From a virus: a stretch of 64,000 nucleotides of DNA. Both the position numbers and the translations under genes were made by a program. Under the pieces are notes generated by a model. It was not told where the DNA came from. It was given only the letters and a program-made list of their open reading frames with translations, and did no database searches. This document shows positions 16,307 to 56,638 of the stretch, piece after piece. Position 1 is the first letter of the stretch. Each line of letters begins with the position of its first letter. The stretch lies in the IMG/VR virus record IMGVR_UViG_3300042564_002458, positions 56,922 through 120,921 of that record. One strand, given 5' to 3'.

Positions 16307-16307
16307 G

Positions 16308-28244: not shown

Positions 28245-28796
28245 TTATTGAATTGTAATAACTACTCTTCTATCTGGTGACAAACAAGATTTAAATTTCT
28301 CAAAGTTTTTCATACCAGTACAAAGTGCAGTATCAGAAGTTGGCTGTGTAGAACCAACACCACTGACAACAAATTTGGATTTAAATCCAGTTTTGGAGTT
28401 CAGATAATCAGCAACAGCCTGAGCACGTTGTTGACTTAACTTTTGATTATAAGATGATGTACCAATACGATCAGTATGACCAATTATAGTCACGATTGAG
28501 GTAGTAGTAATACTTTTAATAATCGGATTCAATACTTCACGACCTTTTACAGTCAATGCAGATGAATCGAATTCAAATAAAACATCACCGTTCAAAGTCA
28601 TTGGTGTACGTTTTACTTCAGCAACTGGATCACAACCTTTTACTGCGTTAGTAGGAACATAAGTTCCTGTATGCAGACAAAGACCACTTCCAGTTTGTAC
28701 AATCTTACCGCTACTATCCGTTACATAACCCTCTGCTGCCATACCGACAGACCAGATGGTTAAGTAGGATAACATGATTACTAATAATGCTTTCAT
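28245..28796 (-). CDS. OmpA-family outer-membrane/peptidoglycan-associated protein
   Basis: 183 residues. Signal peptide (MKALLVIMLSYLTIWSVGMAAE), a short N-terminal part, then an OmpA C-terminal domain from about residue 68: VLFEFDSSALTVKGREVL, IIGHTDRIGTSSYNQKLSQQRAQAV and DRRVVITI. The TDxxGxxxxNxxLSxxRA motif binds peptidoglycan. No beta-barrel, so it is Pal-like. It follows the porin gene by 15 bases and shares its terminator; together they could alter the host envelope. Confidence 0.9.
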   Translation of the reverse strand: MKALLVIMLSYLTIWSVGMAAEGYVTDSSGKIVQTGSGLCLHTGTYVPTNAVKGCDPVAEVKRTPMTLNGDVLFEFDSSALTVKGREVLNPIIKSITTTSIVTIIGHTDRIGTSSYNQKLSQQRAQAVADYLNSKTGFKSKFVVSGVGSTQPTSDTALCTGMKNFEKFKSCLSPDRRVVITIQ

Positions 28797-28811: not shown

Positions 28812-29951
28812 TTAGAATTGATGACGTAGACCAACACCAACTACAGTGCTTTTCGCGGTATCAACAGTAGCATAGTTTACACTTTGACCAACATAGGCAT
28901 ACGCATTTGTACGCTTAGTGAAGTCATATGTATAACCCAAGTTGTATGAGCTTTGATTCTGAGCATTGTAAGCATCTTTCATGTTGGTGTTAGGGGCAAT
29001 CATTGTCCATGACACTAACACACGCGATACAGCGTTCACAGGAACAGTAGCGCCAACGATGTAGCTGTTGTAGCCAACACCGGGTGCGAACACCAAGGCG
29101 TTTGTGTTACCGTTAGGTCCAACTGCCAATTGTGCACCAGTACCACCAGCACCTGAACCAGCCCAGAAGCCGTCACGAGTCTGTCCATAACCTGCCATTA
29201 ATTTTACTACTTTCAAATCATAAGAAGCACCCAAGCTCCAGTTGTTAACTGACTGACCATTCTGAACTGATGATTCAGAGGCATAAGCTTTGTCATAAGA
29301 TACAGCTGCATAAACTGGACCATTGGCGTATTTTAAACCAGCGGTAATTTGGCGTGAGTTGTCGCTTGTAGCAAAACCATAGCCAGTTGTACCACCATTA
29401 GAAGCCAATCCTGTAGCAAACGAATATCCCAAACCGGCTTGAACACCGCTCATAACAGGTGAACGATACATTAATGTATTGTCTAGACGTAGTGTATTAC
29501 CAGATGTAAAGGCATGACCCATGTTCAATTGACCGAATCCTGCCGAGAATGGATCTAAGTTTCCGACTAGCCAATCACTTGCCAAGTTTGTCATACGACC
29601 TAAGCGAACATCGCCCCAGGCACTATTTTGTAATCCAAACCAAGCTTGACGACCAAACATACGACCACTTTGTTGACTTGTGCCATTACCAAGATCAAAT
29701 CCGTTTTCCAATTGGAAAATAGCCGAATTGCCGTTACCCATGTCCTCAACGCCCTTGAGACCGAATCGGTTTCCTGACTGAACGCCATAAGCACCACCAA
29801 AGTTGCTAACGCCCTCGCCATTGGCAAGACTGACTGATTGATAGCGTAGACCACCATCGATGAGACCATATAATGTTACAGAACTTTGTGCCTGAGCAGC
29901 TGTTCCAACGGCCAATGCAGCAGCCAATACTGATAGTTTATAAAATTTCAA
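28812..29951 (-). CDS. Burkholderiales-type outer-membrane porin
   Basis: 379 residues, probably from the TTG at 29951, preceded by AGGAGAAGTAAA; the ATG at 29981 lies upstream of that ribosome site. Signal peptide LKFYKLSVLAAALAVGTAAQA, mature start QSSVTLYGLIDGGLRY, PEFRLFG-like GRMFGRQAWFGL, and a C-terminal GVGLRHQF ending in Phe for Bam insertion. It matches 16-stranded trimeric porins of Comamonadaceae/Burkholderiaceae. GC is higher than in its surroundings, which suggests capture from a host. It could replace the phage receptor or alter nutrient uptake. Confidence 0.93.
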   Translation of the reverse strand: MKFYKLSVLAAALAVGTAAQAQSSVTLYGLIDGGLRYQSVSLANGEGVSNFGGAYGVQSGNRFGLKGVEDMGNGNSAIFQLENGFDLGNGTSQQSGRMFGRQAWFGLQNSAWGDVRLGRMTNLASDWLVGNLDPFSAGFGQLNMGHAFTSGNTLRLDNTLMYRSPVMSGVQAGLGYSFATGLASNGGTTGYGFATSDNSRQITAGLKYANGPVYAAVSYDKAYASESSVQNGQSVNNWSLGASYDLKVVKLMAGYGQTRDGFWAGSGAGGTGAQLAVGPNGNTNALVFAPGVGYNSYIVGATVPVNAVSRVLVSWTMIAPNTNMKDAYNAQNQSSYNLGYTYDFTKRTNAYAYVGQSVNYATVDTAKSTVVGVGLRHQF

Positions 29952-30063
29952 TTTACTTCTCCTTAATGTTTTCAAAAACAATATACATTATCACATATAA
30001 TGTAATATAATACAAGTTTTTTGGTATAATGACTAGTATTTAGTTATTATAATTGAGATTAAA

Positions 30064-31325: not shown

Positions 31326-31787
31326 ATGTCCGAGAAATATCAGAGTGCAAGTGAAAAGAAAAAAGAAGATTGGATGAACTCAAAGTGGCGTCCAATGATG
31401 GGTTGGATGTATATGGCAGTTTGTATGACCGATTTTGTACTATTTCCAGTACTATGGAGTTTAGTACAGGCCGTCCATGGTGGACAAGTAAGTAGTCAGT
31501 GGAGTCCTATTACACTTCAAGGTGCTGGATTGTTTCACATGGCAATGGGTGCTATTTTGGGTATTGCTGCATTTGGCAGAACACAGGAGAAAATGGCTGG
31601 GGTCAATAACGGCGGATTAACAACTTCAAATATCTCATCAGGTAGTGTTCCTTTGAGTGCTAATACAATGAACACAATGAACACAAGTGGATTCCCATCA
31701 ACTCAAAATTCCATTTCAAATTCACCAATATTAATAAGCAGTACAGGCAAAACAATGCCACCACCACAAATAGATCAACCATTATAA
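31326..31787 (+). CDS. Holin (three-helix, 3TMs type)
   Basis: 153 residues. SKWRPMMGWMYMAVCMTDFVLFPVLWSLV and GAGLFHMAMGAILGIAAFGRTQE give two or three membrane segments with the WRPxxGW start of the 3TMs holin superfamily. The C-terminal half is a disordered Ser/Thr/Asn/Pro-rich tail, unusually long for a holin. First gene of the lysis cassette. Confidence 0.75.
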   Translation: MSEKYQSASEKKKEDWMNSKWRPMMGWMYMAVCMTDFVLFPVLWSLVQAVHGGQVSSQWSPITLQGAGLFHMAMGAILGIAAFGRTQEKMAGVNNGGLTTSNISSGSVPLSANTMNTMNTSGFPSTQNSISNSPILISSTGKTMPPPQIDQPL

Positions 31788-31800
31788 CAAGGATAATAAA

Positions 31801-32022
31801 ATGAAAAAGATTCTAACATCACTATTAATAACATTTATAGGAATATTTTCCTCTATGGTTTATGCAGCTGATGAAGCTCCAAAAACTAAACAAGTATGCA
31901 AAGATGTGCTTGATAAAGATAAAAAACCAGTGTTGAACAAAGATGGAACTACAAAACAAACTTGTAAAACAATTAAGATTCACAAAAAAGTCGAGGGTAC
32001 AGAAATCCCTCCAAAGAAATAA
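31801..32022 (+). CDS. Small secreted basic protein
   Basis: 73 residues. Signal peptide MKKILTSLLITFIGIFSSMVYA, then a Lys-rich mature part with two Cys (KQVCKDV and KQTCKTI), perhaps a disulfide. It lies between holin and endolysin; role in lysis unknown. Confidence 0.62.
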   Translation: MKKILTSLLITFIGIFSSMVYAADEAPKTKQVCKDVLDKDKKPVLNKDGTTKQTCKTIKIHKKVEGTEIPPKK

Positions 32023-32034
32023 TCGGAGATCACT

Positions 32035-32895
32035 ATGTCAGGATTTACATTTAACTTTACTGAACAACAACTAGCACAAATGATACCTGGGAATTCATAT
32101 GTTTCTCAGTGGTATCAGGCATTGTGTAGAATTCTTCCAGAATATGAAATTAATACTCCACAACGAGTGGCAGCATTCGTGGCACAATGCGCTCATGAGA
32201 GTGGAAACTTTCGCTTACTCAAAGAGAACTTAAACTACAAGGCTGAGAGTTTAATGAGAGTATGGCCTAGTCGTTTCCCAAACATAGAAATCGCGCGTCA
32301 GTATGCTATGCAACCAGAAAAGATTGCCAATAAAGTTTACTGTGATCGAATGGGTAATGGTAGTGAGCAGTCAGGAGATGGTTGGAAGTATGCAGGAAAG
32401 GGATTGATCCAATTAACCGGAAAAGACAATTATACTTGGTTCGCAGAATCTATTGAAACTCCTCTTGAACAAATTCCGGAATATCTACAAACATTCGAGG
32501 GTGCTGTTCAGTCAGCCTGTTGGTTCTGGGAAGTCAATAATTTAAATCAATGGTCTGATGCAGGTGACATTCTTACACTAACAAAGAGAATAAATGGTGG
32601 GACTATCGGTCTTGAAGATCGTATTAAACATTATCAACATGCGCTTCATGTGTTAGGTGGTGCAGTTAGTGAAACTCAACATGTAACAGAATCAAGTGGA
32701 ATTGATATGTCCACTGTTATTCGTCGAGGTAGTAGAGGATCTACTGTAGCGGCCGTACAGTCTAAACTTGGTCTTACTGCCGATGGTGACTTTGGTCCAG
32801 GTACAGAAAGAGCCTTGATGGGATGGCAGCGCGAGAATGGTCTTGAACCTGATGGTATTGCCGGCCCACTAACGTTGGCTAAAATTCTCGGATAA
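32035..32895 (+). CDS. Endolysin: GH19 glycosidase plus peptidoglycan-binding domain
   Basis: 286 residues. Residues about 1-200 form a GH19 chitinase-like muramidase domain: CAHESGNFRLLKENLNY holds the catalytic Glu, and GDGWKYAGKGLIQLTGKDNY is the hallmark. Residues about 220-286 form a PG_binding_1 domain (VQSKLGLTADGDFGPGTERAL). No signal peptide, so it needs the holin to cross the inner membrane. Confidence 0.95.
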   Translation: MSGFTFNFTEQQLAQMIPGNSYVSQWYQALCRILPEYEINTPQRVAAFVAQCAHESGNFRLLKENLNYKAESLMRVWPSRFPNIEIARQYAMQPEKIANKVYCDRMGNGSEQSGDGWKYAGKGLIQLTGKDNYTWFAESIETPLEQIPEYLQTFEGAVQSACWFWEVNNLNQWSDAGDILTLTKRINGGTIGLEDRIKHYQHALHVLGGAVSETQHVTESSGIDMSTVIRRGSRGSTVAAVQSKLGLTADGDFGPGTERALMGWQRENGLEPDGIAGPLTLAKILG

Positions 32896-32897
32896 TT

Positions 32898-33344
32898 ATG
32901 TGGCAAATAATGTGGCTATTCTCTCTATTACCAGATTTTGTCTATCATATATTATTGATAGTTGGAATAGTTGCTTTTGCCGGAAGTTATCTTCTGACGA
33001 TGATTCCATTCTTTACTCAGAATGCATTTATGATTCGTATTGCCAGTATGATTCTCATTATTTTTTGTGTCTGGATGGAAGGGGGCATGGCTGTTGAATC
33101 TAAGTGGAAAGCTCAAGTTGCAGAACTTGAATTGAAGGTTGCCAAGGCAGAGAAAGAATCGGCAGAAGCAAATGGACGTATAGAAACTGTATACGTAGAT
33201 AGAATTAAAGTAGTAAAAGAAATACAATATGTAGTTCAAGGGCGTATATCTAAAGATGCTGATAAATTAGACAAAACTTGTAAAATTGATCCAGAAGCAA
33301 TTGAAATACTCAATCAATTCACACACTCTGGAGCGAAGAAATGA
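32898..33344 (+). CDS. Inner-membrane spanin-like protein (i-spanin)
   Basis: 148 residues with about three membrane helices in the first 65 residues (LLPDFVYHILLIVGIVAFAG and others), then a long charged coiled-coil (AQVAELELKVAKAEKESAEA) facing the periplasm. This architecture, directly before a lipoprotein gene that overlaps by four bases, fits an i-spanin/o-spanin pair. Extra N-terminal helices are unusual, as Rz has one. Confidence 0.68.
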   Translation: MWQIMWLFSLLPDFVYHILLIVGIVAFAGSYLLTMIPFFTQNAFMIRIASMILIIFCVWMEGGMAVESKWKAQVAELELKVAKAEKESAEANGRIETVYVDRIKVVKEIQYVVQGRISKDADKLDKTCKIDPEAIEILNQFTHSGAKK

Positions 33345-33598
33345 AATTAGCCACATTATTATTAACCATTTTGTTAACTGGGTGTGTTACACCAGTGGCT
33401 AGAAATTTTCCATCAATTCCAGAATCATTAAAAACTAAATGTGAGGATTTGACTAAAACTCCTCAAACAGATAAGTTAAGTGTAGTGTTATCAGTCGTGG
33501 TAAAGAATTATGGTCAATATCAAGAATGTAGTGCAAAAGTTGATATATGGATAGAGTGGTACAGTGAACAAAAAAAAATATTTGACTCTGTAAAATAA
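33341..33598 (+). CDS. Outer-membrane spanin-like lipoprotein (o-spanin)
   Basis: 85 residues. Lipobox LLTGC (Cys 15) after MKLATLLLTIL, then a short periplasmic part with helix and two more Cys. ATGA overlap with the i-spanin gene. Predicted to join the i-spanin to disrupt the outer membrane. Confidence 0.72.
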   Translation: MKLATLLLTILLTGCVTPVARNFPSIPESLKTKCEDLTKTPQTDKLSVVLSVVVKNYGQYQECSAKVDIWIEWYSEQKKIFDSVK

Positions 33599-33619
33599 TA
33601 ATAACAAAAGGAGCAGTCA

Positions 33620-33901
33620 ATGAATGAAATATTCAAACTGATATCCGATTTAGGTTTCCCAATTGCAGCTGCAATTGCTGGTGGCTATTTCGTTTATCTA
33701 ACAATTAAATTATTACTAGCTGGAGTATTATCAGCAGTTAAAGGTATGGCTGGTATTATCACTGCATTAGATAATCGTGTTAAAACAATGAATCACGATG
33801 TTATACGCATCGATACCGTAGTATCAAACGCGTTGGGATTAAAACCTGATGTTGATCGTGTTGCGCGTGCTGATGGTAAGAATGATGCTCGGAGAGACTA
33901 A
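33620..33901 (+). CDS. Single-helix membrane protein, paralogue A
   Basis: 93 residues. One membrane helix (LGFPIAAAIAGGYFVYLTI) and a helical tail ending in charged residues. Paralogue of 34080-34385: both have a [F/Y]GFPI start, D/N-xRxxxMxxDxIRxxxxV in the middle and a charged end. Possible holin-like or antiholin partner; this is inference from location. Confidence 0.65.
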   Translation: MNEIFKLISDLGFPIAAAIAGGYFVYLTIKLLLAGVLSAVKGMAGIITALDNRVKTMNHDVIRIDTVVSNALGLKPDVDRVARADGKNDARRD

Positions 33902-34080
33902 TGCTATACTTTGATTACACATGGAATTTGAGTGACAACGGAATTGTCTTAGACCAAGAACTTGATGCATATAAACTAGGATGGAAAGAAGGTGACTTGT
34001 TTAAGTTTGTAGACATTGACGGCAAGCGACAATTAGTCAAACTGGATCCCGTAGAAAAGTTTATAAAAGGATACGAATAA
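33901..34080 (+). CDS. 59-residue conserved phage protein
   Basis: Reads MLYFDYTWNLSDNGIVLDQ in the first 19 residues, with LGWKEGDLFKFVDIDGKR later. TAATG overlaps at both ends tie it to the two paralogous membrane proteins. I recall similar small proteins in T4-like phages of aquatic bacteria; function unknown. Confidence 0.65.
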   Translation: MLYFDYTWNLSDNGIVLDQELDAYKLGWKEGDLFKFVDIDGKRQLVKLDPVEKFIKGYE

Positions 34081-34385
34081 TGGATAACATATCAGATTTA
34101 ATTAGCAAGTACGGATTTCCTATTGTAGCAGCAGTAGGAATGGGCATGATGATAAAGTATGTGTGGACCTGGGCCACTACAGAAATCAAACCTGTCATTA
34201 GTGATGCCAACACAGTGCTTATTGCTCTTATTGATCGTATACGTATGTTAGACAACGATCTGATCCGATTGAATCAAAAGGTCAATACTGTATTGCATCT
34301 ACGTGGCAAGACCATTGAACACGAACGTGTAGAAGCCGAAGCAGACATCAATCAAAAGACCACCGAAATCAAGGAAAAAAAATGA
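34080..34385 (+). CDS. Single-helix membrane protein, paralogue B
   Basis: 101 residues. Membrane helix YGFPIVAAVGMGMMIKYVW, then a long helix with LIALIDRIRMLDNDLIRLNQKV and a charged tail. It looks like a duplicate of 33620-33901. Followed by a lipoprotein with ATGA overlap, repeating the membrane protein/lipoprotein order of the spanin pair. Confidence 0.65.
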   Translation: MDNISDLISKYGFPIVAAVGMGMMIKYVWTWATTEIKPVISDANTVLIALIDRIRMLDNDLIRLNQKVNTVLHLRGKTIEHERVEAEADINQKTTEIKEKK

Positions 34386-34723
34386 AACAGTTTCTAGCTG
34401 TTGCTGTACTAATAGTGTTAACTGGATGCAGTCTGCTGCCAAGAGCACATGATCCAGTGATGTTTGATCAGTTAATTACAGTAGATATTACCATAAAGAA
34501 AGTTGATTGTAATAATCCAGATTGGAAAATAGCATTGATTCAAACTCAACACTTATCTCAATATACTACTTGGAGAAATGATCCTCAATCGTCCAATCTT
34601 AATGGTTTGTATTTACATGTAGAGAAAATGAGTGAAGGTGGATCAAAAACTTTTTGTGAAATAGGTAAAAAAACTGCAGCTGGTAGAATTTTAGCAACCA
34701 AAACGGCCTGGGAGGGTAGATGA
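34382..34723 (+). CDS. Lipoprotein of unknown function
   Basis: 113 residues with lipobox VLTGCSLL (Cys 16). The mature part has two more Cys (VDCNNPDW, KTFCEIGK). It may be a second o-spanin-like protein or a superinfection-type lipoprotein. Overlaps both neighbours by four bases. Confidence 0.6.
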   Translation: MKQFLAVAVLIVLTGCSLLPRAHDPVMFDQLITVDITIKKVDCNNPDWKIALIQTQHLSQYTTWRNDPQSSNLNGLYLHVEKMSEGGSKTFCEIGKKTAAGRILATKTAWEGR

Positions 34724-34962
34724 TGCAATCAATTGATATACTAGAACAACTTAAAGTAGTAGATCCCATATTCATTGATATTGCTATAGAAATGCAATCA
34801 ATTGAAGATGCTTATGCTAAGGGTGAATTATCATTAGATGAACGTCTACACTTAATAAATGAAATACGTGATATTCGTGCAGCACAATGTTGTGCTGGGA
34901 ATGAAATAGCAATTAGACATCTAGTTCAAGTTTGTAACTTAATAGCCAGTATTATTAAATAA
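34720..34962 (+). CDS. Helical protein of unknown function
   Basis: 80 residues, mostly helical, acidic, with ELSLDERLHLINEIRDI and a CC pair. Last gene tightly linked to the cassette. No family recognised. Confidence 0.58.
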   Translation: MMQSIDILEQLKVVDPIFIDIAIEMQSIEDAYAKGELSLDERLHLINEIRDIRAAQCCAGNEIAIRHLVQVCNLIASIIK

Positions 34963-34970
34963 TTGTAAAT

Positions 34971-34992
34971 AATCATAAATATTTTTATGATT
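34971..34992 (+). promoter_or_regulatory. Octamer and hairpin over the start codon of 34987-35184
   Basis: CATAAATA (34974-34981) precedes the ATG by five bases, with no ribosome site. The stretch also forms a perfect 9-bp hairpin (34971-34979 with 34984-34992) that contains the ATG, so start access may be controlled, or the mRNA may begin at the ATG. Confidence 0.5.
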
Positions 34993-35184
34993 ATTATTGT
35001 TGGTTGGAATCAAGTTGATGAAATTAGTCATTGGTGTTCTGAAAACGTGGGGTATTTGATTTGGACTAACAATATCTCAGATTGGATAGGACATGGATGG
35101 TATGTGTCTCGTGTTTCAAACGGATTAAAATTAAGAATTGATAATGAAGAAAAGCGACTATTAGCCGCTTTACTTTGGACTTAA
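34987..35184 (+). CDS. LKW-family small protein, + strand member
   Basis: 65 residues with HWCSENVG and tail AALLWT, a reduced form of the LKWS family. Its stop ends one base before the stop of the convergent cyclase gene. No ribosome site; see the octamer and hairpin at its start. Function unknown. Confidence 0.65.
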   Translation: MIIIVGWNQVDEISHWCSENVGYLIWTNNISDWIGHGWYVSRVSNGLKLRIDNEEKRLLAALLWT

Positions 35185-37239
35185 TTACTTGCTTGTTGCC
35201 CTATATGTTCCGTCCCAATCTCTTGGTAAATTGGACATTTTCATTTCATAACATCTTTTTTTCCAAATAGTATAATATTCATTCATTTGTCCATCAAATT
35301 CACCCATTAAACTATCACATAAAAATATAGCGTGTTCAAATTCTTGTTTACGATATGCAACTAACATTTCTTCATGATCTTTACGACCAATTTCATATTC
35401 ACCATGAGCACCTGGATATAATTCTAATACAGTATAAATCGTAACTCCTAATGTCTTACCTTTAACTGCGATACAATCTAACTCTAATACAAAATAATCA
35501 TCTTTTACATATTCAGCAGTTTTTGGACCAAGTACGATTTTGACGCCGTACGGTTTACTCTGGCCTTCCAATCTTGAAGCCAAATTGACGCCATCACCAA
35601 GACAAGTATAGTCAAAACGCTGATCACTTCCCATGTTACCAACCACAACGGTGTCAGTATTAATGCCAAGACCCATACCAAAAGCCGGTACACCTTCTGC
35701 TGTAACTTCTTTATTAAATTCATCTAAACTTCCCATCATTTCTAAACCTGTTTTGACAGCTAACTTGGCATGATCCACATTGTTAATAGGTGCATTCCAA
35801 AATGCCATCTGAGCATCACCAATATATTTGTCTAATGTACCATTGTTTTCTAATATTTTCTTTGTCATAGCAGTCATATAACGATTCATAATCTTAGTTA
35901 AACCTTGTACATCACGACCATAATGTTCACTAATAGCGGTAAATCCACGAACATCAGTAAACATAATTGTAAGCTCTTGTTCATCTCCACCTAGTCTTAA
36001 TAATTCTGGTTGTCTTTGTAATTTGGCTACTAAATCAGGTGATAGATAACTACCAAATTGTTTCTTGATTTGTTGTTTCTGTAAGAATTCACTTACAAAC
36101 TTAATTCCATAAGCATGAAGAAGAACCAGAATAAGACCAACAACGATGATAGTGCTATCCAAAAGCCAATGATACATATCATACAAATACATGCTACCAT
36201 AAATAGTACCGCCGAGAAAAATAATGCTAGTGATAATCCCAACATAAATCCACCTTGTTAAAAATAGTAATAATAAACCTAATATTAATAATACTAAAAT
36301 CTCTAACCCATCAGCATAATATGGACGTTCAATATTAACTTGATTAACTAATGTACCAATAACTGCAGCTTGTACATAATGTGGGAACTGAGCACCAATT
36401 GCAGTAGGTACTGGATTACTTATTCCGGCGGCAGTTGGTCCAATAATAACAATAGCATCATCTAATTTTTCTGGTAAATTTAATAAATTTACACTTTGTG
36501 GAGTTTGACTCCAATCAATCCATATACGTCCAAAATTGTCAGTAGTAATCGGACCAAATTTTGGTATACGCATTTTTTCTACACCCAATTCATTTAATTT
36601 AACTTGAAATGTAGTATCATCTGATGCTACACGTAATACTTCCATGGCTAAACTTGGATATAGTTTATCATCTACTGTAATTATCAATGGTAAACGACGA
36701 TTAACACCATCAATTTCCGGCAAGGTATTAACTGTACCTATACCCGCCGCAGCATTTTCTAATATAGATACATTGGAAATAATACCAGAATATTTAATGA
36801 TACGATCTAAATATTCTGTATTCAATACGGCTGATCCTGGATTTCTTGGTGTGTTTTTAGTTTTTTGTGATGGCACATTAACCAATACAACTGGGAATTC
36901 TGTCAATGTTTTAGATAATTTAGTATCACCATTTTGTCTATCTTTTTCTGACATTAATACATTTAGTACTACTAGACCAGCGCCACGTTTGTATAAGTCA
37001 CGTATGATATCTGAGTATATAGCTCGATCAAGTGGCCATTGACCATATTTCTCTAGAGTATCTTCATCAATATTGACTGTGTAAATGTTTAATGATTTTG
37101 TAGGTTGACTGGTGATTAGTTGATCAAAATATCTGAGACGAACTGATTCTACAAATGAATAATCAGCAACACGTATACCAACAATCAGTGCTAGTGTTAG
37201 TAATGCTGTCCATGGTGATAGTATAATACGTTTAATCAT
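35185..37239 (-). CDS. CHASE2-domain class III adenylate cyclase
   Basis: 684 residues. N-terminal membrane helix (about 8-25), periplasmic CHASE2 domain (about 40-310, with WPLDRAIYSDIIRDLYKRGA), three membrane helices (about 318-390), then a class III cyclase domain (about 425-610). MFTDVRGFTAISE gives the first metal Asp; LDKYIGDAQMAFW the adenine-type Lys and second Asp; DYTCLGDGVNLASRLEG the Asn/Arg pair. All catalytic residues are present, so it should make cAMP in response to an envelope signal. Common in Burkholderiales, very unusual in a phage. Confidence 0.93.
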   Translation of the reverse strand: MIKRIILSPWTALLTLALIVGIRVADYSFVESVRLRYFDQLITSQPTKSLNIYTVNIDEDTLEKYGQWPLDRAIYSDIIRDLYKRGAGLVVLNVLMSEKDRQNGDTKLSKTLTEFPVVLVNVPSQKTKNTPRNPGSAVLNTEYLDRIIKYSGIISNVSILENAAAGIGTVNTLPEIDGVNRRLPLIITVDDKLYPSLAMEVLRVASDDTTFQVKLNELGVEKMRIPKFGPITTDNFGRIWIDWSQTPQSVNLLNLPEKLDDAIVIIGPTAAGISNPVPTAIGAQFPHYVQAAVIGTLVNQVNIERPYYADGLEILVLLILGLLLLFLTRWIYVGIITSIIFLGGTIYGSMYLYDMYHWLLDSTIIVVGLILVLLHAYGIKFVSEFLQKQQIKKQFGSYLSPDLVAKLQRQPELLRLGGDEQELTIMFTDVRGFTAISEHYGRDVQGLTKIMNRYMTAMTKKILENNGTLDKYIGDAQMAFWNAPINNVDHAKLAVKTGLEMMGSLDEFNKEVTAEGVPAFGMGLGINTDTVVVGNMGSDQRFDYTCLGDGVNLASRLEGQSKPYGVKIVLGPKTAEYVKDDYFVLELDCIAVKGKTLGVTIYTVLELYPGAHGEYEIGRKDHEEMLVAYRKQEFEHAIFLCDSLMGEFDGQMNEYYTIWKKRCYEMKMSNLPRDWDGTYRATSK

Positions 37240-37883
37240 TATCTATTTGTTAGTGCCTTTTTGTCAAAAACTGGATCACTGAAAACAATCACTTGACCAC
37301 GCATCATGATATTTTCATCATGAAGATCAGGACGAAATCCTGGTCGCATAACAACTTCATATACAATATCTAATGCAGAAATAAAATCAGGATATTTCTT
37401 GCAGTATTCAATAAAGGGAATAAAGCGTGAACTCCAGTTATCTTCTTTTCTAGCAATAACTTCACTTGGAGATATTCTTTCAATTGTTGCAATTTCTATT
37501 ATAGCATTCATTGGTTTCAACATCATGTATGCATCTTCGGAAATACGAGTCAATTTCTCTGTACGAATAGCCACTACGCCAGGAACAATACGCACGACTC
37601 GTGGACTGACAAAATGTGGCATATGTGGATTATCTTTGTGTTGAATAGACGCTTTGATCCATTCAATATAGGCAATATCTGTATCAGAAAATACTTTTAG
37701 TACATATGATAGTTGATAATTATCCCATACCGTACCGAATGATCCAGAACCTAATGGTCTGAATCCATTGTCATACAACACTTTGTGCCATTCTAGACCA
37801 AGTGGGTACTCAGCAACTTTACGAGGATTTTGTGGCAAGTTTTTGATTTTATTTTTGATGCCAACTAGTTCTGTAATTTTCAT
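37239..37883 (-). CDS. Protein-kinase-like protein
   Basis: 214 residues. GSGSFGTVWDNYQLSYVLKVF is a glycine-rich loop plus Lys, and FRPDLHDENIMM the catalytic-loop-like HxDxxxxN region. The DFG is replaced by SDPVFD. Small phage kinase-like proteins of this type occur in T4-like phages; activity and target unknown. It overlaps the cyclase start by one base, so the two may act in one signalling unit (inference). Confidence 0.72.
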   Translation of the reverse strand: MKITELVGIKNKIKNLPQNPRKVAEYPLGLEWHKVLYDNGFRPLGSGSFGTVWDNYQLSYVLKVFSDTDIAYIEWIKASIQHKDNPHMPHFVSPRVVRIVPGVVAIRTEKLTRISEDAYMMLKPMNAIIEIATIERISPSEVIARKEDNWSSRFIPFIEYCKKYPDFISALDIVYEVVMRPGFRPDLHDENIMMRGQVIVFSDPVFDKKALTNR

Positions 37884-38431
37884 CTTAGTTTAGGATTTCC
37901 AAATACTGATTCAGTAATAATATTATCAGGTAATTCTCGTTTATATGTCCCATTATCTATCATATGTAGATTAGGATCATTGAATAATTTTTGTAAAAAT
38001 TGTTGATCTGAAATTGGAGTTAAACCACGCTTTAATAATACATTTCGTAACGAATCAGATGATTCAATCCACCAACCTGATTTTGTCAATAATTGTGTTA
38101 ATTTTTCTAATGATTTATCTTTACTTGCGCGACTACCATCATGTCCTAAACCTTGTATTTTGTATCCAGTCCACGTTTCATTTGATCGTGCGGGTCGATA
38201 GAATATAGCACAATCTACGTCTGGATCTTTGTCAAAATCAACAATAGCCCAGTCACTGGGTAACAGATTACTGATATTATTGACAAAACTTCCCTGTGGG
38301 GTATTCTTATAGGCAGTTTGAACAAGAGAAATTAGATCGTCACTTACTTCTGTTTTAGCATCGTTGGAAATATCTAATTCCCAACGATTTTTGGTAAGTT
38401 TGATTTCATATAATAATTCATGTATTTTCAT
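37880..38431 (-). CDS. Conserved phage protein of unknown function
   Basis: 183 residues starting MKIHELLYEIK, with CAIFYRPARSNETWTGYKIQ and KSGWWIESSDSLRN. I recall relatives in cyanophages. ATGA overlap with the kinase-like gene. No ribosome site; the ATG lies three bases after a GATAAATA octamer, so it may be leaderless. Confidence 0.65.
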   Translation of the reverse strand: MKIHELLYEIKLTKNRWELDISNDAKTEVSDDLISLVQTAYKNTPQGSFVNNISNLLPSDWAIVDFDKDPDVDCAIFYRPARSNETWTGYKIQGLGHDGSRASKDKSLEKLTQLLTKSGWWIESSDSLRNVLLKRGLTPISDQQFLQKLFNDPNLHMIDNGTYKRELPDNIITESVFGNPKLR

Positions 38432-38434
38432 ACA

Positions 38435-38442
38435 TATATTTA
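38435..38442 (-). promoter_or_regulatory. Late-promoter-like octamer at a leaderless start
   Basis: Minus strand GATAAATA, ending three bases before the ATG of 37880-38431. It would drive the kinase-like and cyclase genes too. Confidence 0.5.
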
Positions 38443-38492
38443 TCGTTTTTGCTGGTTACGAGTTCCAGCGTGTACTCTATCTTGTACCCGGT

Positions 38493-39503
38493 TTATTTTG
38501 CGATTTGTGACCAAACTTTATTACGAATCTGATCAGTTAGTGTGTCAGGAAGTGCTACATAGTCCAATTCTGATGCCAAGGCCTTACCGTTCTTGAATGA
38601 CCAATCAAAAAACTTGATGACTTCTGCTGTGGCTTTGGGATCAGCAGGTTTAGCATAGATCAAGATAAAACTGGCACCAGCAATGGGCCAACTCTTGACA
38701 CCTGTAGCATCAATAATACTAATACCCATGCCTGGTTTGCTGAACCAGTCGGCATCAGCTGCGGCTGCAGCAAACGATTCTTCGTTAGGGTTTACATAGT
38801 GTCCGTCACGATTTTGCAATTGAAGATGTTTGATATTGTTCTTTTTAGCGTAGGCATATTCCACATAACCGATGGCACCTTTAACTCGCGTCACATTAGC
38901 AGCAACACCTTCGTTGCCTTTACCACCAACTGAACTGGCTGCGGGCCATTTAACAGCATTGCCTTTACCAATCTTGTCTGCCCAGTCCTTAGATACTGTG
39001 GCAAGATAGTCCGTAAAGTGATAAGTTGTTCCGGATCCGTCAGCACGATGTACCACTGTGATGTTTTGATTGGGCAACTTTTTACCAGGATTCAGTGCTG
39101 CTATCTTGGAATCATTCCAATTGAGAACGGTACCTTGATAAATTTCAGCCAACACTGATCCAGTTAGTCTCAGTTCGCCTGGCTTGAATCCATCTAAATT
39201 GGCTATTGGTACTACACCACCTAATATGGCTGGGAATTGCAGCAATCCCAACTTATTCAAAGTGTCTTCTGATACTGGGGCATCACTTGCACCAAAGTTT
39301 ACTGTTTTGTTTGTGATTTGTCGAACGCCACCTGAACTTCCAATGCTTTGATAGTTAAATCTTACGCCAGTTTCTTTGTTGTAAACTTCTGCCCATTTGG
39401 CATAGATAGGATATGGAAATGTTGCACCAGCACCCGTGATTTGTTGTGCCGATGTTGTAAAACTTGTCACTGCTAATATTAGTACAGCTACTATTTTGTT
39501 CAT
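38493..39503 (-). CDS. pstS: Phosphate ABC transporter substrate-binding protein
   Basis: 336 residues, full length. Signal peptide MNKIVAVLILAVTSFTTSAQ; phosphate-binding motifs GAGATFPYPIYAKW, GSSGGVRQITNK and HRADGSGTTYHFTDYL. It binds phosphate in the periplasm for the host PstCAB transporter. Phage pstS genes are well known from cyanophages, where host PhoB can control them. A Pho-box-like repeat lies upstream (39553-39570). Confidence 0.96.
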   Translation of the reverse strand: MNKIVAVLILAVTSFTTSAQQITGAGATFPYPIYAKWAEVYNKETGVRFNYQSIGSSGGVRQITNKTVNFGASDAPVSEDTLNKLGLLQFPAILGGVVPIANLDGFKPGELRLTGSVLAEIYQGTVLNWNDSKIAALNPGKKLPNQNITVVHRADGSGTTYHFTDYLATVSKDWADKIGKGNAVKWPAASSVGGKGNEGVAANVTRVKGAIGYVEYAYAKKNNIKHLQLQNRDGHYVNPNEESFAAAAADADWFSKPGMGISIIDATGVKSWPIAGASFILIYAKPADPKATAEVIKFFDWSFKNGKALASELDYVALPDTLTDQIRNKVWSQIAK

Positions 39504-39670: not shown

Positions 39671-39678
39671 TATTTATT
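39671..39678 (-). promoter_or_regulatory. Late-promoter-like octamer
   Basis: Minus strand AATAAATA followed by TCATAG, 24 bases before the miniprotein ATG. Overlaps the end of the curlin-repeat gene. Confidence 0.4.
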
Positions 39679-40096
39679 GACCTTGTTGTACTATAATAGT
39701 ACCACAATTAGCAGTAGCGCAAGTATGAGTTAAAGAATATGTTTGTTGAGTAGACCCGGACTGAATACTATTCAGTCCAGTTGTATTACCATGTAATTGA
39801 ACTGCGGATTGATGATTACCTGATCCTTGTTGTAATAGATTTACACTTTTATTCCCGCCAGTTAATGATATTGAAACATCATGATTACCATTATCTTTTT
39901 GTTGTATAATTAATGAATTATTGTTATCAGTAACAATGACATTAACCGTTTTATTACTACCCCATTGCTCAATACTGGTGATATTATTTTTACCCACTTG
40001 ATTAATCATAACAGAATTATAATCACCAATTTGTTCAATATATATTGAACTTTGTGCATATGAATTAAAAACTATGAATAAGAATAGCCATCTCAT
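39674..40096 (-). CDS. Curlin-repeat protein (CsgB/CsgA-like, second)
   Basis: 140 residues. Short signal peptide (MRWLFLFIVFNSYAQ) and about five curlin-type repeats of the form xIxQxGxxNxxxI, for example YIEQIGDYNSVMINQVGKNN and SLIIQQKDNGNHDVSI. A Cys pair lies near the C-terminus. Predicted secreted amyloid-like fibre subunit or nucleator. Overlaps the FecR-domain gene by four bases. Confidence 0.8.
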   Translation of the reverse strand: MRWLFLFIVFNSYAQSSIYIEQIGDYNSVMINQVGKNNITSIEQWGSNKTVNVIVTDNNNSLIIQQKDNGNHDVSISLTGGNKSVNLLQQGSGNHQSAVQLHGNTTGLNSIQSGSTQQTYSLTHTCATANCGTIIVQQGQ

Positions 40097-41175
40097 CGTT
40101 TTACTCCAGAATTTTGTTTAATCATTACAAAATTACCACCAGGACTTCCATCTCCTATCAATGCAGTGGCCACAACATCATTATGAATTACAATAACATT
40201 AGTATTAGATTGATGTCCAACAGTTTTTACTTCAACATAATGTTCATTCTCTGAATTTCTAAATGCAATTCCTCTTCCTCGGCCTTTTTGATCGACAGCA
40301 TCTGGTTTTTCCCATGACACACACACTTGAAATTTTGGATTACACCCGCTTTTTAATGCTGTCTCTGTCATACCAATAATACGAGATTGTTCTGCACTTT
40401 CTGCAACAAGTTTTTTAAGTTGTTGTTGAGATTGAATTTCCAATTCTTCTAATTCTATTTCACGCTTAGATTTACCACTTTCTTTTATCGCTCGTTGAAC
40501 TTCTGGTGGTTTACTAATAATTAGTGTGTTATTTAATTTACTCTCAATTGTATTGACTAAAGTTGGTGTTGTTGGGCTGACAGTTGCACTAGCGACATAT
40601 GTGGCATGAAATGCTTGATTTAGAGTAACTGTTCCTGTTAAAGTACTTACATCAATTTGACCAACCTTACAACGATTTTCTTCCAATTCATATTTCTTAA
40701 CATCGTTTTCATCTTTACAACTTGGTATTAAAACAATTAAACTTTGACCAGATTCATCAACAGTCATAGTAAAGTCTGTTCCACGAACTGCCACCGTAGC
40801 AGTTGGTGTTTTAATGTCAACTCGTTGTGGGTTTGTTTTGGCAATTTGTCCACTGGCATAACGAACTGTTCCCATTCCCACTTTAATGGCTAATTTTCCA
40901 GCATCAGATTTTTTAGAATCATATACAAAATCATCAATTAGTAATCTACTATTTTCAGTAACTCGAACTTTTGTATCATCTTTGAATGTAATATGTCCTA
41001 CGCACTTATTAGTAACATAAATATCCATACTGTGAATTGTGCTATTTTTTTCACCAGTGATTTTACTTTTGTTGCGATGTATTTCGCATCCAATTCCGTC
41101 ATGACTACTTACAGTTCCTATTTCTGCATAAGAATTAGTCGCCAGTAATATTAATACCAACAACATTAATCTCAT
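40093..41175 (-). CDS. Secreted FecR-domain protein
   Basis: 360 residues. Signal peptide (MRLMLLVLILLATNSYA), then a FecR-type region about 55-185 with VTENSRLLIDDFVYD, GTVRYASGQIAKTNPQRVDI and PTATVAVRGTDFTM, the usual 'ATAAVRGT' block. The rest has coiled-coil (LEELEIQSQQQLKKLVAES) and a beta-rich end. In bacteria such FecR proteins often sit beside CHASE2 cyclases, as here within 4 kb. Role in curli assembly unknown. Confidence 0.8.
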   Translation of the reverse strand: MRLMLLVLILLATNSYAEIGTVSSHDGIGCEIHRNKSKITGEKNSTIHSMDIYVTNKCVGHITFKDDTKVRVTENSRLLIDDFVYDSKKSDAGKLAIKVGMGTVRYASGQIAKTNPQRVDIKTPTATVAVRGTDFTMTVDESGQSLIVLIPSCKDENDVKKYELEENRCKVGQIDVSTLTGTVTLNQAFHATYVASATVSPTTPTLVNTIESKLNNTLIISKPPEVQRAIKESGKSKREIELEELEIQSQQQLKKLVAESAEQSRIIGMTETALKSGCNPKFQVCVSWEKPDAVDQKGRGRGIAFRNSENEHYVEVKTVGHQSNTNVIVIHNDVVATALIGDGSPGGNFVMIKQNSGVKR

Positions 41176-41176
41176 T

Positions 41177-41929
41177 TTATCTCGCCACTGCAGTTAATGG
41201 GTTAATAATAGAACTACTACTGGTTCTAACTGTAACAGTGTTATTACTTCCAGTAGTTCTGATATCAACATTAGTGTCATTAACGCCCTGTTGTTGAATA
41301 ATGTAACTATTATAATCACCAGTAACCGCTAATTGTAATTCGTGTCCATCAACTCCAGCTACATCAATTTGTTGACTGTCTAATTTGTTGTTATTACCAA
41401 TAATACTAACATTACTAATTCCACTTGAACTTTTTAATTCTTTAGTAATTTGATTAGTATTTCCTGTTGCAACAATTGTACTAGTAATGTCATTTCCAAT
41501 CACTGTTTGAATTATATTATTAGAATTACCGGTAATTGTTTCAGTGATATTATTTCTTAAATTTGTGGCTGATAGTGCAGTTCCAACATTTAATTTAGAA
41601 TTATTTAAATTTCCAGTTATGATACTAGTGTAAGTATTATTGTTACCATAGATATCATATTGATTTAAATTACTATCTCCAGTTTGAGTTATGGATACTG
41701 TGTTAGTATTACCAGTAATGGTTGCATAATTAGAACTACTTGGAGTAATATTACTAGTACCCCCAACACCATTTGTTCCACCAACTTGTTCTATGGTAAT
41801 AGTATTACTACTACCAATTTGCTCAATATATACTTTATTTGGTCCAGTACTAGCGTTTTGTGCCATGACTGATCCAAATGATGATAATATTAAGACAAAT
41901 AAACTATTGATTATTATTTTTGTTTTCAT
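41177..41929 (-). CDS. Curlin-repeat protein (major curlin-like)
   Basis: 250 residues. Signal peptide (MKTKIIINSLFVLILSSFGSVMAQ) followed by many repeats rich in Asn, Gly, Thr and Ser: YIEQIGSSNTITIEQVGG, VSITQTGDSNLNQYD, YIIQQQGVNDTNVDI. Likely the main fibre subunit secreted by the CsgG pore next door. Longer than E. coli CsgA (151 residues). Confidence 0.82.
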   Translation of the reverse strand: MKTKIIINSLFVLILSSFGSVMAQNASTGPNKVYIEQIGSSNTITIEQVGGTNGVGGTSNITPSSSNYATITGNTNTVSITQTGDSNLNQYDIYGNNNTYTSIITGNLNNSKLNVGTALSATNLRNNITETITGNSNNIIQTVIGNDITSTIVATGNTNQITKELKSSSGISNVSIIGNNNKLDSQQIDVAGVDGHELQLAVTGDYNSYIIQQQGVNDTNVDIRTTGSNNTVTVRTSSSSIINPLTAVAR

Positions 41930-41938
41930 AGTTATTCC

Positions 41939-42748
41939 TTATTTTTTAAAATTCCAGTGTCCCTTTTTGACACCTTCATTAATTGTTCCTACGACTGCCG
42001 CTTGTATAGCGAGAGCGGTGGCACGATTAATACTTTCATTGATACTGGCTCCAGTTTCTGCTTCAATTGCCTGTGTTCCATTATCAACAAATTTCAATAC
42101 TCCGAGTTTGTCCATATAACTTAATACTGTCTTGGTTACCGTTACGGAAGTTAGTATTTCCCCTGTAGCTACTGATACTGTTCTGAGTGTTACGGTTACT
42201 GTGTCACTTTGATATTGAGTGCTGGCTCCAATACCAAATAATCTTAATCCACTACCACCAGTTATTAAATTACTATCATAACCAACAATAGCACCCTCAA
42301 TAATAATTCCAGCAAACATCATTGGTGGTAATGTTTTTGCATCACGACCTTGATATTGTTCGCGCATTTGTCTAATCATTTGTCTTTCTTTGATTAAATT
42401 TTCTAAACCCACTCGTTCTAATACCGTAAACCAACGACCATTACCTACATCTTGTAATGCTTTAATTAAATAACTATCTCCACCTTGAGTGACGGCTGAA
42501 CTTAAACTGGCAATATTTGGAACACTTTTACGCTGACCGGTTTTATCCATAAATCCATAAACTGCCACAGTTATTGGCCCACTTTCTGGAGGTTCTACTT
42601 GAAAATTGTCTCTAGTAAATACTGTTTCTTTTTCTATAATAGGGTCATCAAATTGTCTTCCAGTCATTTTTTCTCTGAGAAAACTACTAGTGGCACAAGA
42701 AGATAACATTAACCCTGTTAGTATCAAGGATAAGATTTTTATTATCAT
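41939..42748 (-). CDS. csgG: CsgG curli secretion pore lipoprotein
   Basis: 269 residues, close to bacterial CsgG. Lipobox MLSSCATS (Cys about 18). Motifs: VAVYGFMDKTGQRKS, GGDSYLIKALQDVGNGRWFTVLERVGLENLIKERQ (the region after the pore constriction start) and LPPMMFAGIIIEGAIVGYDSN. It forms a nonameric outer-membrane channel for curlin. Follows csgF by nine bases. Confidence 0.94.
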   Translation of the reverse strand: MIIKILSLILTGLMLSSCATSSFLREKMTGRQFDDPIIEKETVFTRDNFQVEPPESGPITVAVYGFMDKTGQRKSVPNIASLSSAVTQGGDSYLIKALQDVGNGRWFTVLERVGLENLIKERQMIRQMREQYQGRDAKTLPPMMFAGIIIEGAIVGYDSNLITGGSGLRLFGIGASTQYQSDTVTVTLRTVSVATGEILTSVTVTKTVLSYMDKLGVLKFVDNGTQAIEAETGASINESINRATALAIQAAVVGTINEGVKKGHWNFKK

Positions 42749-42757
42749 TTTTTATCC

Positions 42758-43237
42758 TTAAAAAGCAAAAGTACCAGCCGGCACTTTCATAGTGGTAACT
42801 TGATTGGCATTAGTTAAACTAATAATACTAATTATTATCATTCCACGATCACTACCATCACCTAATTTCCAAGTGATTGAATTTCCACCCAGATCCGGAA
42901 TAGTTCCACAAACAATACCGGCTTGTGTGCAAGTTGCACCTTCACCAAACATACTATCGGTGAGTTGTTTTGCCAATTGTGAATATATTCTACTTTCTAA
43001 ATTGGCAATAAATCTTGCCTGCGGGGTATCTTTTGCCGCGGCTTCGATTTTTGCTTTTAGAGCCTCGGACGCAGCAGTGTTTTTATCCTTGGCTTGATCT
43101 TCAAGTTGTTTGATTGTCAGTATGTGCGAACTATAACCAATTCCACCAAATGCCGGACTATTAAAATTAAAATTTAATTCCCCAGAATTAGCAGCAAAAC
43201 AAGTTACGAACAGCACACTTATTATTATTGTTTTCAT
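42758..43237 (-). CDS. csgF: CsgF curli assembly factor
   Basis: 159 residues. Signal peptide (MKTIIISVLFVTCFAANSGE) and a mature N-terminus ELNFNFNSPAFGG, which is the CsgF segment that plugs into the CsgG pore. The C-terminal beta domain follows. Longer than E. coli CsgF (138). First gene of the curli operon, with its start codon inside a possible hairpin. Confidence 0.9.
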   Translation of the reverse strand: MKTIIISVLFVTCFAANSGELNFNFNSPAFGGIGYSSHILTIKQLEDQAKDKNTAASEALKAKIEAAAKDTPQARFIANLESRIYSQLAKQLTDSMFGEGATCTQAGIVCGTIPDLGGNSITWKLGDGSDRGMIIISIISLTNANQVTTMKVPAGTFAF

Positions 43238-48360: not shown

Positions 48361-48435
48361 TGGTGGATCGTGACGGGTTCGAACCGCCGACTTTTTCCGT
48401 GTAAAGGAAACCTTCTACCGCTGAATTAACGATCC
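48361..48435 (-). tRNA. tRNA-Val (UAC)
   Basis: 75 bases with CCA encoded. Acceptor GGATCGT/ACGATCC, anticodon loop TTTACAC (UAC), T-loop TTCGAAC. Reads GUA and probably other Val codons. Confidence 0.93.
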
Positions 48436-48442
48436 AAAAGTT

Positions 48443-48688
48443 TTACAGATAAATAAATGTCATTACAATTCCAAGTAGTAATAATAAAACTGTAAAAATT
48501 GTAAGTGTAATTTCTAATAATTTGGGAAATTTTGATGACTCAAAAACCTCTTCAATTTCACTTGGTTTTGGAATATTATCAATTTCAATATTTGACTTTG
48601 GTAAATCATTAACAGAATTATTTTGATAATGATTTACAAAAACAATTACTACTAAAACTAATAAAATTATAATTAAAATTGGTGACAT
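48443..48688 (-). CDS. Small two-helix membrane protein
   Basis: 81 residues with a helix at each end (ILIIILLVLVVIVFVNHY and LEITLTIFTVLLLLLGIVM) and an acidic middle. Lies between tRNA-Leu and tRNA-Val. Function unknown. Confidence 0.6.
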   Translation of the reverse strand: MSPILIIILLVLVVIVFVNHYQNNSVNDLPKSNIEIDNIPKPSEIEEVFESSKFPKLLEITLTIFTVLLLLLGIVMTFIYL

Positions 48689-48707
48689 ATTATTTCCTTT
48701 TAAATAA

Positions 48708-48792
48708 TGGTACGAGAGACGGGACTTGAACCCGTAATCCTTGCGGCGACAGATTTTAAGTCTGTTGTGTATACCAATTCCACCACTCTCGC
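48708..48792 (-). tRNA. tRNA-Leu (UAA)
   Basis: 85 bases with CCA and a long variable arm. Acceptor GCGAGAG, anticodon loop CTTAAAA (UAA), T-loop TTCAAGT. Confidence 0.93.
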
Positions 48793-48801
48793 ATTTAATC
48801 T

Positions 48802-48942
48802 TTACCGTCTATCTCCTGGATTACAGGTGACATTGTACATACTACCCTGATATAATGTTTTCTGCCAACAAACTTGACCACGAGGTCCCATTACACAGCC
48901 AGATAACATTACAATCATGACAACTAATAGTGTCTGTTTCAT
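48802..48942 (-). CDS. 46-residue lipoprotein
   Basis: Reads MKQTLLVVMIVMLSGCVMG at the start: signal peptide plus lipobox LSGC (Cys 16). The short mature part has two Cys (QVCWQKTLY and NVTCNPGD). Lies between tRNA-Arg and tRNA-Leu. Function unknown; perhaps superinfection exclusion. Confidence 0.62.
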   Translation of the reverse strand: MKQTLLVVMIVMLSGCVMGPRGQVCWQKTLYQGSMYNVTCNPGDRR

Positions 48943-48999
48943 ATTAATTTATCTCAATTAAAACAATATAATAAATTTAACTTTTTTCTAATGTAAAAA

Positions 49000-49074
49000 T
49001 GGTCCGGCGACCAGGAATCGAACCTGGATTAATAGCTTAGAAGGCTACTGTTCTATCCGTTGAACTATCGCCAG
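49000..49074 (-). tRNA. tRNA-Arg (UCU)
   Basis: 75 bases with CCA. Acceptor CTGGCGA/TCGCCGG (one G-U), anticodon loop CTTCTAA (UCU), T-loop TTCGATT. Reads AGA, a codon favoured in AT-rich genomes. Confidence 0.92.
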
Positions 49075-49081
49075 ATATTAA

Positions 49082-49534
49082 TTAATACTTTGAAGTTGAA
49101 AACTTTTTCAAATGAATTAAGTCAGACGGTGAGACCGCAGACTCTTTGACAACTGCTGATTGATTAATGGGAATTAAATATCGTTCTGTACCATCCTTTA
49201 CTATATCATGATTATAGATCATGATTTTTGGATCAACTTTATAAATCCATCCATCAGATGAATGTTTATAACGATGATGAGGTACAGAGACAAAGTAAAT
49301 AAAATCAACATTCAAACATTTTTTAAGTTGAGATTTAGGAATAGTAAATGAATTTTTCAGTACATATGGATTTTGAGTTTTTACCTCAATTTTAAGTCCA
49401 TTAGCCATAAAATCTTTTTCTGAATCAAATTTATCTACTGAATGAGATATTGTTTGTCCAAGAGAACTAAGATAGTTAATAACTACTTTTTCTCCCGCTA
49501 ATCCTAATTCTCCAGATTTGTCAATATAAGCCAT
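49082..49534 (-). CDS. PD-(D/E)XK-like nuclease
   Basis: 150 residues from the ATG at 49534; the longer frame overlaps a tRNA. GLAGEKVVINYLSSLG resembles the N-terminal helix with Glu, and SEKDFMANGLKIEVKTQ supplies D...ExK. Looks like a small restriction-like or repair nuclease. Substrate unknown. Confidence 0.68.
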   Translation of the reverse strand: MAYIDKSGELGLAGEKVVINYLSSLGQTISHSVDKFDSEKDFMANGLKIEVKTQNPYVLKNSFTIPKSQLKKCLNVDFIYFVSVPHHRYKHSSDGWIYKVDPKIMIYNHDIVKDGTERYLIPINQSAVVKESAVSPSDLIHLKKFSTSKY

Positions 49535-49555
49535 AATTACCCTAATAATATTAAA

Positions 49556-49632
49556 TGGTGCCCCCACCTGGACTCGAACCAGGGACCAAAGGATTATGAG
49601 TCCTCTGCTCTAACCAACTGAGCTACAGGGGC
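49556..49632 (-). tRNA. tRNA with CAU anticodon (Ile2 or Met)
   Basis: 77 bases with CCA. Acceptor GCCCCTG/TGGGGGC, anticodon arm GAGGACTCATAATCCTT (CAU). The body resembles tRNA-Ile2, where lysidine turns the anticodon to read AUA, but elongator Met cannot be excluded by eye. Own promoter at 49663-49691. Confidence 0.9.
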
Positions 49633-49662
49633 ATTTCTGTCAATCTTTCATTCTAAGATACT

Positions 49663-49691
49663 ATTATACAACATTATTGATTTATTGTCAA
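49663..49691 (-). promoter_or_regulatory. Sigma70-type promoter for the tRNA/nuclease genes
   Basis: Minus strand: -35 TTGACA (49691-49686), 17-base spacer, -10 TATAAT (49668-49663); TTGACAATAAATC core. Transcript would start about 25 bases before tRNA-CAU. Confidence 0.83.
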
Positions 49692-49753
49692 GTATTATAT
49701 ATCCAAATTGTAGAATATTCTTTGTCAAGAATTACATTTAATGAGATTTTTTG

Positions 49754-55127: not shown

Positions 55128-55163
55128 ATCATTTTTTCTTCAGTAATATTCATTGTCTAGTGA

Positions 55164-55171
55164 TATTTATC
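55164..55171 (-). promoter_or_regulatory. Late-promoter-like octamer for the radical SAM operon
   Basis: Minus strand GATAAATA followed by TCACTAG, 36 bases before the ATG, with GAAG as a weak ribosome site. The 15-base string is shared with 16566-16573. Confidence 0.5.
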
Positions 55172-55217
55172 TATTTTTAGATTAGAATATTATGATATAA
55201 AAGTTATAATAGTTGAT

Positions 55218-55790: not shown

Positions 55791-55879
55791 ATTATTCCTT
55801 GATTTTAAATTAAAATGATTAACGAGTAGTAAAAGGTCAAGTAATAGACCGGACAATAAACAATAGAAGATGTACATAG

Positions 55880-56172: not shown

Positions 56173-56181
56173 ATTAACTAT

Positions 56182-56257: not shown

Positions 56258-56264
56258 AAAACTT

Positions 56265-56471: not shown

Positions 56472-56472
56472 T

Positions 56473-56628: not shown

Positions 56629-56638
56629 TTTACTTCCT

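Follow-up and report, generated by a model that had tools for sequence, protein, structure and literature searches.

The first report of a phage curli operon came from Zaragoza-Solas et al. 2020 (PMC7029224), and phage curli genes were also described by Buchholz et al. 2022 (PMC9004378), with the cyclase discussed in neither study. The closest described locus is the curli, or type VIII secretion system (T8SS), region of pelagiphages, which lacks CsgE, contains a FecR gene and an adenylate cyclase, and follows the order csgF, csgG, curlin, FecR, second curlin, and cyclase (Wittmers et al. 2022, PMC9599517). In the same study, trees point to an alphaproteobacterial source, ocean metatranscriptomes show that phage T8SS genes are expressed, and a histidine kinase before csgF is reported as a feature of the podovirus version of the region (PMC9599517). 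Among bacteria, the Sinorhizobium meliloti cyclases CyaD1, CyaD2, and CyaK combine CHASE2 with a class III cyclase, an envelope input, and a cAMP output (PMC13001267, PMC5498481). These CHASE2 cyclases raise cAMP on sensing an extracellular plant protein via the outer-membrane protein NsrA and act via Clr (PMC13001267), and CyaD1 without CHASE2 gives constitutive cAMP (PMC5498481). A biofilm operon of Burkholderia contaminans offers another comparison; in it, a FecR-domain gene neighbors the gene of a CHASE2 histidine kinase (PMC5192318).

The window analyzed here, a 64,000-nucleotide stretch of an IMG/VR virus record that has 120,921 bases and is possibly incomplete, carries a class III adenylate cyclase (AC) as the last gene of such a block (Table 1). 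To our knowledge, membrane receptors that produce a second messenger are not usually expected in lytic phages. The minus-strand order is csgF-csgG-curlin-fecR-curlin-pstS-orf183-kinase-AC, which fits the phage curli/T8SS type, with CsgF, CsgG, and a curlin-repeat gene adjacent, FecR after the first curlin, and AC last. The window AC is therefore placed as a fresh example of an already described phage gene group consisting of curli-fiber genes and a cyclase. These curli and FecR genes immediately upstream of the cyclase (39674-43237) had been missed in the first-pass annotation. The window differs from the described regions in that pstS, orf183, and the kinase-like gene are interposed between the second curlin and AC, and in that the gene directly before csgF encodes a GGACT-family protein (Pfam) rather than a histidine kinase. 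We held the histidine kinase to be non-defining because Pelagibacter phage HTVC008M and Methylophilales phage Melnitz have none annotated there. As in the pelagiphage regions (PMC9599517), CsgE is missing, with no PF10627 match in the 120.9-kb record, which may be incomplete; canonical curli export is thus not assured. The window phage also encodes a porin of the Porin_4 type, and its relationship to the described pelagiphages is only distant.

Table 1. Features of the cyclase locus and its surroundings. Positions are window coordinates unless a locus is named (L005 and so on).
Feature	Position	Strand	Basis
Lysis genes: holin (31326-31787), endolysin (32035-32895), two small membrane/lipoprotein ORFs	31326..33598	+	PHROGs for the first two; inspection
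Terminator-like stem-loop directly 3' of the AC stop codon	35151..35171	-	Consensus match only
CHASE2 class III AC, 684 aa	35185..37239	-	ORF list, Pfam, PHROGs, residue alignment, AlphaFold, fold match
AC C-terminal part, residues 565-684 (last cyclase strands and helical tail)	35188..35547	-	
Class III cyclase catalytic domain, residues 421-602	35434..35979	-	Pfam PF00211 Guanylate_cyc, 6.9e-19; fold match
Codon of metal Asp D475	35815..35817	-	Kept in 79/79 phage homologs
Codon of metal Asp D429	35953..35955	-	Kept in 79/79 phage homologs
CHASE2 sensor with flanking helices, residues 15-323	36271..37197	-	Pfam PF05226, 1.1e-39
Kinase-like protein, 214 aa, distant T7 gp0.7 type; separate cargo	37239..37883	-	PHROGs, alignment, model
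orf183, 183-aa protein traveling with the kinase-like gene	37880..38431	-	Homolog distribution
PstS-like phosphate-binding protein	38493..39503	-	Pfam, PHROGs
Second curlin-repeat protein, signal peptide-like N-terminus	39674..40096	-	PF07012, 8.1e-5
Exported FecR-domain protein, proposed CHASE2 partner	40093..41175	-	PF04773, 7.6e-10; bacterial linkage
First curlin-repeat protein	41177..41929	-	PF07012, 7.5e-4, just below cut-off
CsgG outer-membrane curli pore	41939..42748	-	PF03783, 2.4e-48
CsgF	42758..43237	-	PF10614, 8e-10
Stand-alone ~117-aa homolog, example	L005:17428-17781	-	
Stand-alone ~117-aa homolog, example	L013:1571-1945	+	
Stand-alone ~117-aa homolog, example	L054:16761-17114	-	
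Stand-alone ~117-aa homolog, example	L191:6001-6360	+	

The architecture of the AC, in which CHASE2 is followed by transmembrane helices and then by the class III cyclase domain, fits a CHASE2-type AC. Its AlphaFold model (mean pLDDT 89) runs from an N-terminal transmembrane helix through an extracytoplasmic alpha/beta domain and three more helices to the cyclase domain, which superposes on Pseudomonas aeruginosa CyaB (TMt 0.88) and Spirulina CyaC (TMt about 0.84-0.87). The active site is complete (D429, K471, D475, T545, N552, R556, K593, and K595), and the first-pass claim of an intact cyclase with all catalytic residues is borne out by Pfam, by the alignment of 79 phage homologs, and by the fold match; the loss of a metal Asp, named there as one finding that would overturn the claim, is seen in none of the 79. 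Specifically, D429, K471, D475, R556, K593, and K595 are invariant across these homologs, whereas position 545 is Asp in 14/79 and Ser in 1/79, and position 552 is Ser in 14/79. Aligned with P. aeruginosa CyaB, the purine-site residues K471 and T545 form an ATP-type rather than a guanylate-type pair, and the transition-state pair N552 and R556 is present. The window AC is accordingly predicted to make cAMP, its catalytic competence being judged from sequence and fold. Phage ACs with Asp545/Ser552 may represent a subfamily with possibly different activity; Melnitz AC has both of these residues in place of T545 and N552, and HTVC008M AC differs from the window in the absence of the C-terminal tail. 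The AC start codon and the stop codon of the 214-aa kinase-like ORF have one base in common (37239), as the first-pass annotation had described. Misassembly of a host gene into the contig is unlikely and was rejected as an explanation in view of a second contig, 99.96% identical over 10.6 kb, and of many diverged phage contigs that have the gene content and order of the AC locus in common. A promoter scan returned matches no more numerous than in shuffled sequence.

Membrane class III cyclases had been called very unusual in phages, with a search of related phages proposed as a check. This search returned plentiful relatives and speaks against rarity, as at least 599 viral contigs in an IMG/VR scan encode relatives of the AC, one PHROG family spans its whole length (790 bits), two cultured phage groups are represented, and a published description exists. 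The matches in the phage record collection were Melnitz (QZI95054.1, 40.5% identity) and HTVC008M (AGE60353.1, 37.6% identity), both of which encode a CHASE2 AC in the gene order of the window block, with the AC directly after the gene in the second-curlin position. When flanks were compared at 80 viral AC loci, 42 had at least 7 kb on either side, and csgF, csgG, curlin, and fecR lay near the AC in 41 of these. The gene fecR is on the same strand as AC in 58/69 relatives, and AC is on the opposite strand in the other 11/69, which, together with the three interposed genes in the window, indicates that strict co-transcription is not required. The pelagiphage case was already known; starting from the window, this block proves to be common also among viral contigs well beyond the described pelagiphages, and at least hundreds of aquatic phage contigs carry this group of curli genes and cyclase.

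The AC is a maintained gene, with dN/dS between 0.05 and 0.14 among the 40 closest pairs listed, indicating purifying selection. In a 66-protein tree built with a quick method and midpoint rooting, the phage ACs, including those of Melnitz, HTVC008M (on a long branch), and three MAG-binned contigs, fall on one side of a starred branch and all sampled alpha- and gammaproteobacterial ACs on the other. This topology fits a single old acquisition of the AC by phages. The best alphaproteobacterial AC score exceeds the best gammaproteobacterial score (383 vs 312 bits), in agreement with the published alphaproteobacterial origin. This quick, midpoint-rooted phylogeny, of the kind that the first-pass annotation had proposed for finding the donor lineage, groups the phage ACs and singles out no donor. 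The phage-type curli-FecR-AC block is also present on the three MAG-binned contigs (L085, L086, and L091; Rhodobacteraceae and Pirellulales MAGs), whose ACs fall within the phage clade; these are probably phage contigs binned into bacterial MAGs. The same data bear on the idea that a bacterial cyclase is simply carried as a passenger without benefit. The AC does sit in a variable region and is absent from a close relative, but the low dN/dS, the invariant catalytic residues, and a single phage-only clade containing two cultured phage groups make this explanation extremely unlikely.

The kinase-like neighbor had been proposed as the cyclase's partner in a two-gene signaling pair. The label itself holds at the level of fold. 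The protein has a weak match to the T7 gp0.7 kinase PHROG (phrog_15752, E 7e-7, 174 residues), keeps the Lys, Asp, Asn, and Asp catalytic positions of kinases in six relatives, and yields a model (pLDDT 80) that matches kinase and aminoglycoside-phosphotransferase folds, with TM-scores to PDB kinases of only 0.25-0.38. It thus has the catalytic pattern in common with the T7 gp0.7 family, but the match is distant and the window family is sporadic in phages. The pairing is suggested by the one-base overlap and by the adjacency of kinase and AC in four (L004, L008, L017, and L082) of the five AC loci that have the kinase family; L008 is nearly identical to the window. Against it, 75/80 AC loci are without the kinase family, and a kinase search that found 46 loci, some on the same contigs, showed an AC within 9 kb in 4 and none in 41 of the 45 newly fetched loci counted. 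Furthermore, loci L152 and L153 keep orf183-kinase at 92% DNA identity (93% protein identity) with the same lysis-side flank as the window, and their similarity to the window stops where the window cyclase begins, with no cyclase or curli genes there and no cyclase in the 71.5-kb record of L153, which may be incomplete. Compared with window positions 33602-38443, orf183-kinase in L152/L153 abuts the lysis genes, and a segment of about 3.6 kb with the cyclase and small genes is missing. A dedicated kinase partner was rejected on this distribution and on the relative in which the pair persists without a cyclase, and we consider the two-gene signaling pair very unlikely as a general account, while a functional kinase-AC link may exist in the few phages having both. 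The adjacency is better read as arising because both favor the same variable site, and the orf183-kinase pair is separate cargo, as is pstS, in a variable region that borders the lysis genes. An MKIxEL N-terminal motif of orf183 and the kinase was also considered as a capsid-targeting tag and was dropped; only these two ORFs of the window have it.

Bacterial genomes point to a different candidate partner. ACs of this type were found in 49/185 gammaproteobacterial genomes sampled (E <= 1e-60) and in 83/240 alphaproteobacterial genomes sampled (E <= 1e-70). A FecR domain (PF04773) lies within 3 kb of 11/55 gammaproteobacterial ACs against 0.33 expected and within 6 kb of 18/55 against 0.59 expected, the expectations being derived from genome-wide counts on the assumption of uniform placement. 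Of 40 alphaproteobacterial loci, 10 have fecR within two genes of the AC. In bacteria, the majority of ACs of this type lack an adjoining fecR. No csgG or csgF was detected in 60 bacterial AC loci with phage-trained profiles, which could miss distant copies, and a bacterial operon uniting AC, fecR, and curli, which we had considered, was found at none of these loci; the fecR-AC link is thus independent of curli. This adjacency far above chance, in bacteria and without curli genes, is newly found here. Since fecR lies near AC in bacteria even without curli, FecR is the better partner candidate, and the indication of FecR rather than the kinase gives the so far unexplained phage curli genes a pair that can be tested. 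The B. contaminans operon (PMC5192318) resembles the window in encoding a periplasmic FecR-domain protein beside a CHASE2 receptor, but it signals through a histidine kinase and a response regulator, and its FecR protein adds LysM. The S. meliloti cyclases resemble the window in their CHASE2 and cyclase domains, a likeness drawn by description rather than by sequence, but they are bacterial and take their input from the outer-membrane protein NsrA, not CsgG.

The observations are that the catalytic site is intact, the architecture is that of a membrane sensor, selection is purifying, and linkage to csgF-csgG-curlin-fecR is conserved. On these grounds we propose, with about even confidence, that an active membrane AC forms the signaling end of a phage-borne curli (T8SS) block. 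The exported FecR-domain protein would bind or shape the periplasmic CHASE2 domain and might thereby report envelope state or curlin export through CsgG. CHASE2 would in turn switch the paired cytoplasmic cyclase domains, and the resulting cAMP would act on CRP-type regulators of the host, shifting the metabolism and surface state of the infected cell in the phage's favor during expression of the curli block. An effect of cAMP on the host is plausible. No cNMP-binding domain (PF00027) was recognized in the phage record, so the cAMP receptor would have to be the host's. In another and, in our judgment, unlikely account, the host receives a constant flood of cAMP from the cyclase, with CHASE2 and FecR only localizing the enzyme at the membrane and sensing nothing. 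No ligand is known for phage CHASE2, and the constitutive cAMP produced by CHASE2-deleted CyaD1 (PMC5498481) implies that the catalytic half is active by itself; the conservation of CHASE2 positions across the family and the retention of fecR with AC in both phages and bacteria argue against this account. The block could also serve lysis timing, with CsgG/CsgF as a gated pore and the cyclase as its sensor or timer rather than a regulator of host transcription. Buchholz et al. 2022 (PMC9004378) have proposed that the phage CsgGF pore functions in lysis, and the window AC adjoins the lysis genes (31326-33598). This reading is improbable, as the curlin-repeat genes in the block would be needless for a mere pore, the AC adjoins baseplate/tail genes and not lysis genes in Melnitz and HTVC008M, and there is no known link between cAMP and lysis.

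A stand-alone homolog of the cyclase C-terminal part, present in many phages, is also newly found here. Within AC loci, 15 ORFs of about 100-128 aa show homology to AC residues 565-678, with scores of up to 102 bits. They correspond to the last cyclase strands and helical tail and lack the metal, purine, and Asn/Arg residues, and the ~117-aa product is therefore predicted from its residues to be non-catalytic. A profile scan gave 372 viral loci, some of which could be tails of full cyclases, and the 80 loci kept were those with short ORFs. The full cyclase is absent in 16 of 20 records tested that carry the homolog. Many copies stand directly before csgF, and in the six cyclase-less loci examined gene by gene the ~117-aa ORF follows genes resembling, by eye, the S21, Hsp20, ClpS, and phosphoesterase-like genes of the window. 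The homolog had no PHROGs match, no significant Pfam match, and no match in the phage record collection, and it is absent from the window phage. An extended form of the proposal given above, in which FecR, CHASE2, and cyclase make up a complete phage transmembrane signaling unit for reading curli export or the envelope and rewriting host cAMP during infection, with the stand-alone copy tuning that unit or competing with it in many relatives, is offered tentatively and is somewhat unlikely to hold in full.

Further genes in the window were recorded alongside the cyclase locus. A Gram-negative-type porin (Porin_4, 1.6e-46; 28812-29981, minus strand) is matched only once, and weakly, in the phage record collection and lies beside an OmpA-domain protein (28245-28796, minus strand). 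A surface change or a superinfection block is a possible role for the porin, and its Porin_4 type suggests, by inference only, a betaproteobacterial host. A host-like cluster at 12909-17721 encodes S21, a zinc-finger ClpX-like ATPase, IscU/NifU-N, an IscA-type Fe-S biogenesis protein, Hsp20, and ClpS. Positions 49754-55127 hold a run of overlapping small genes and a radical SAM protein (54105-55127); several genes of this run resemble, by eye, 2-oxoglutarate oxygenases or SGNH-type hydrolases, and the two tested (50724-51332 and 51853-52548) had no Pfam match. The region 48361-61866 contains 13 tRNA genes and an RtcB-type RNA ligase (58019-59272).
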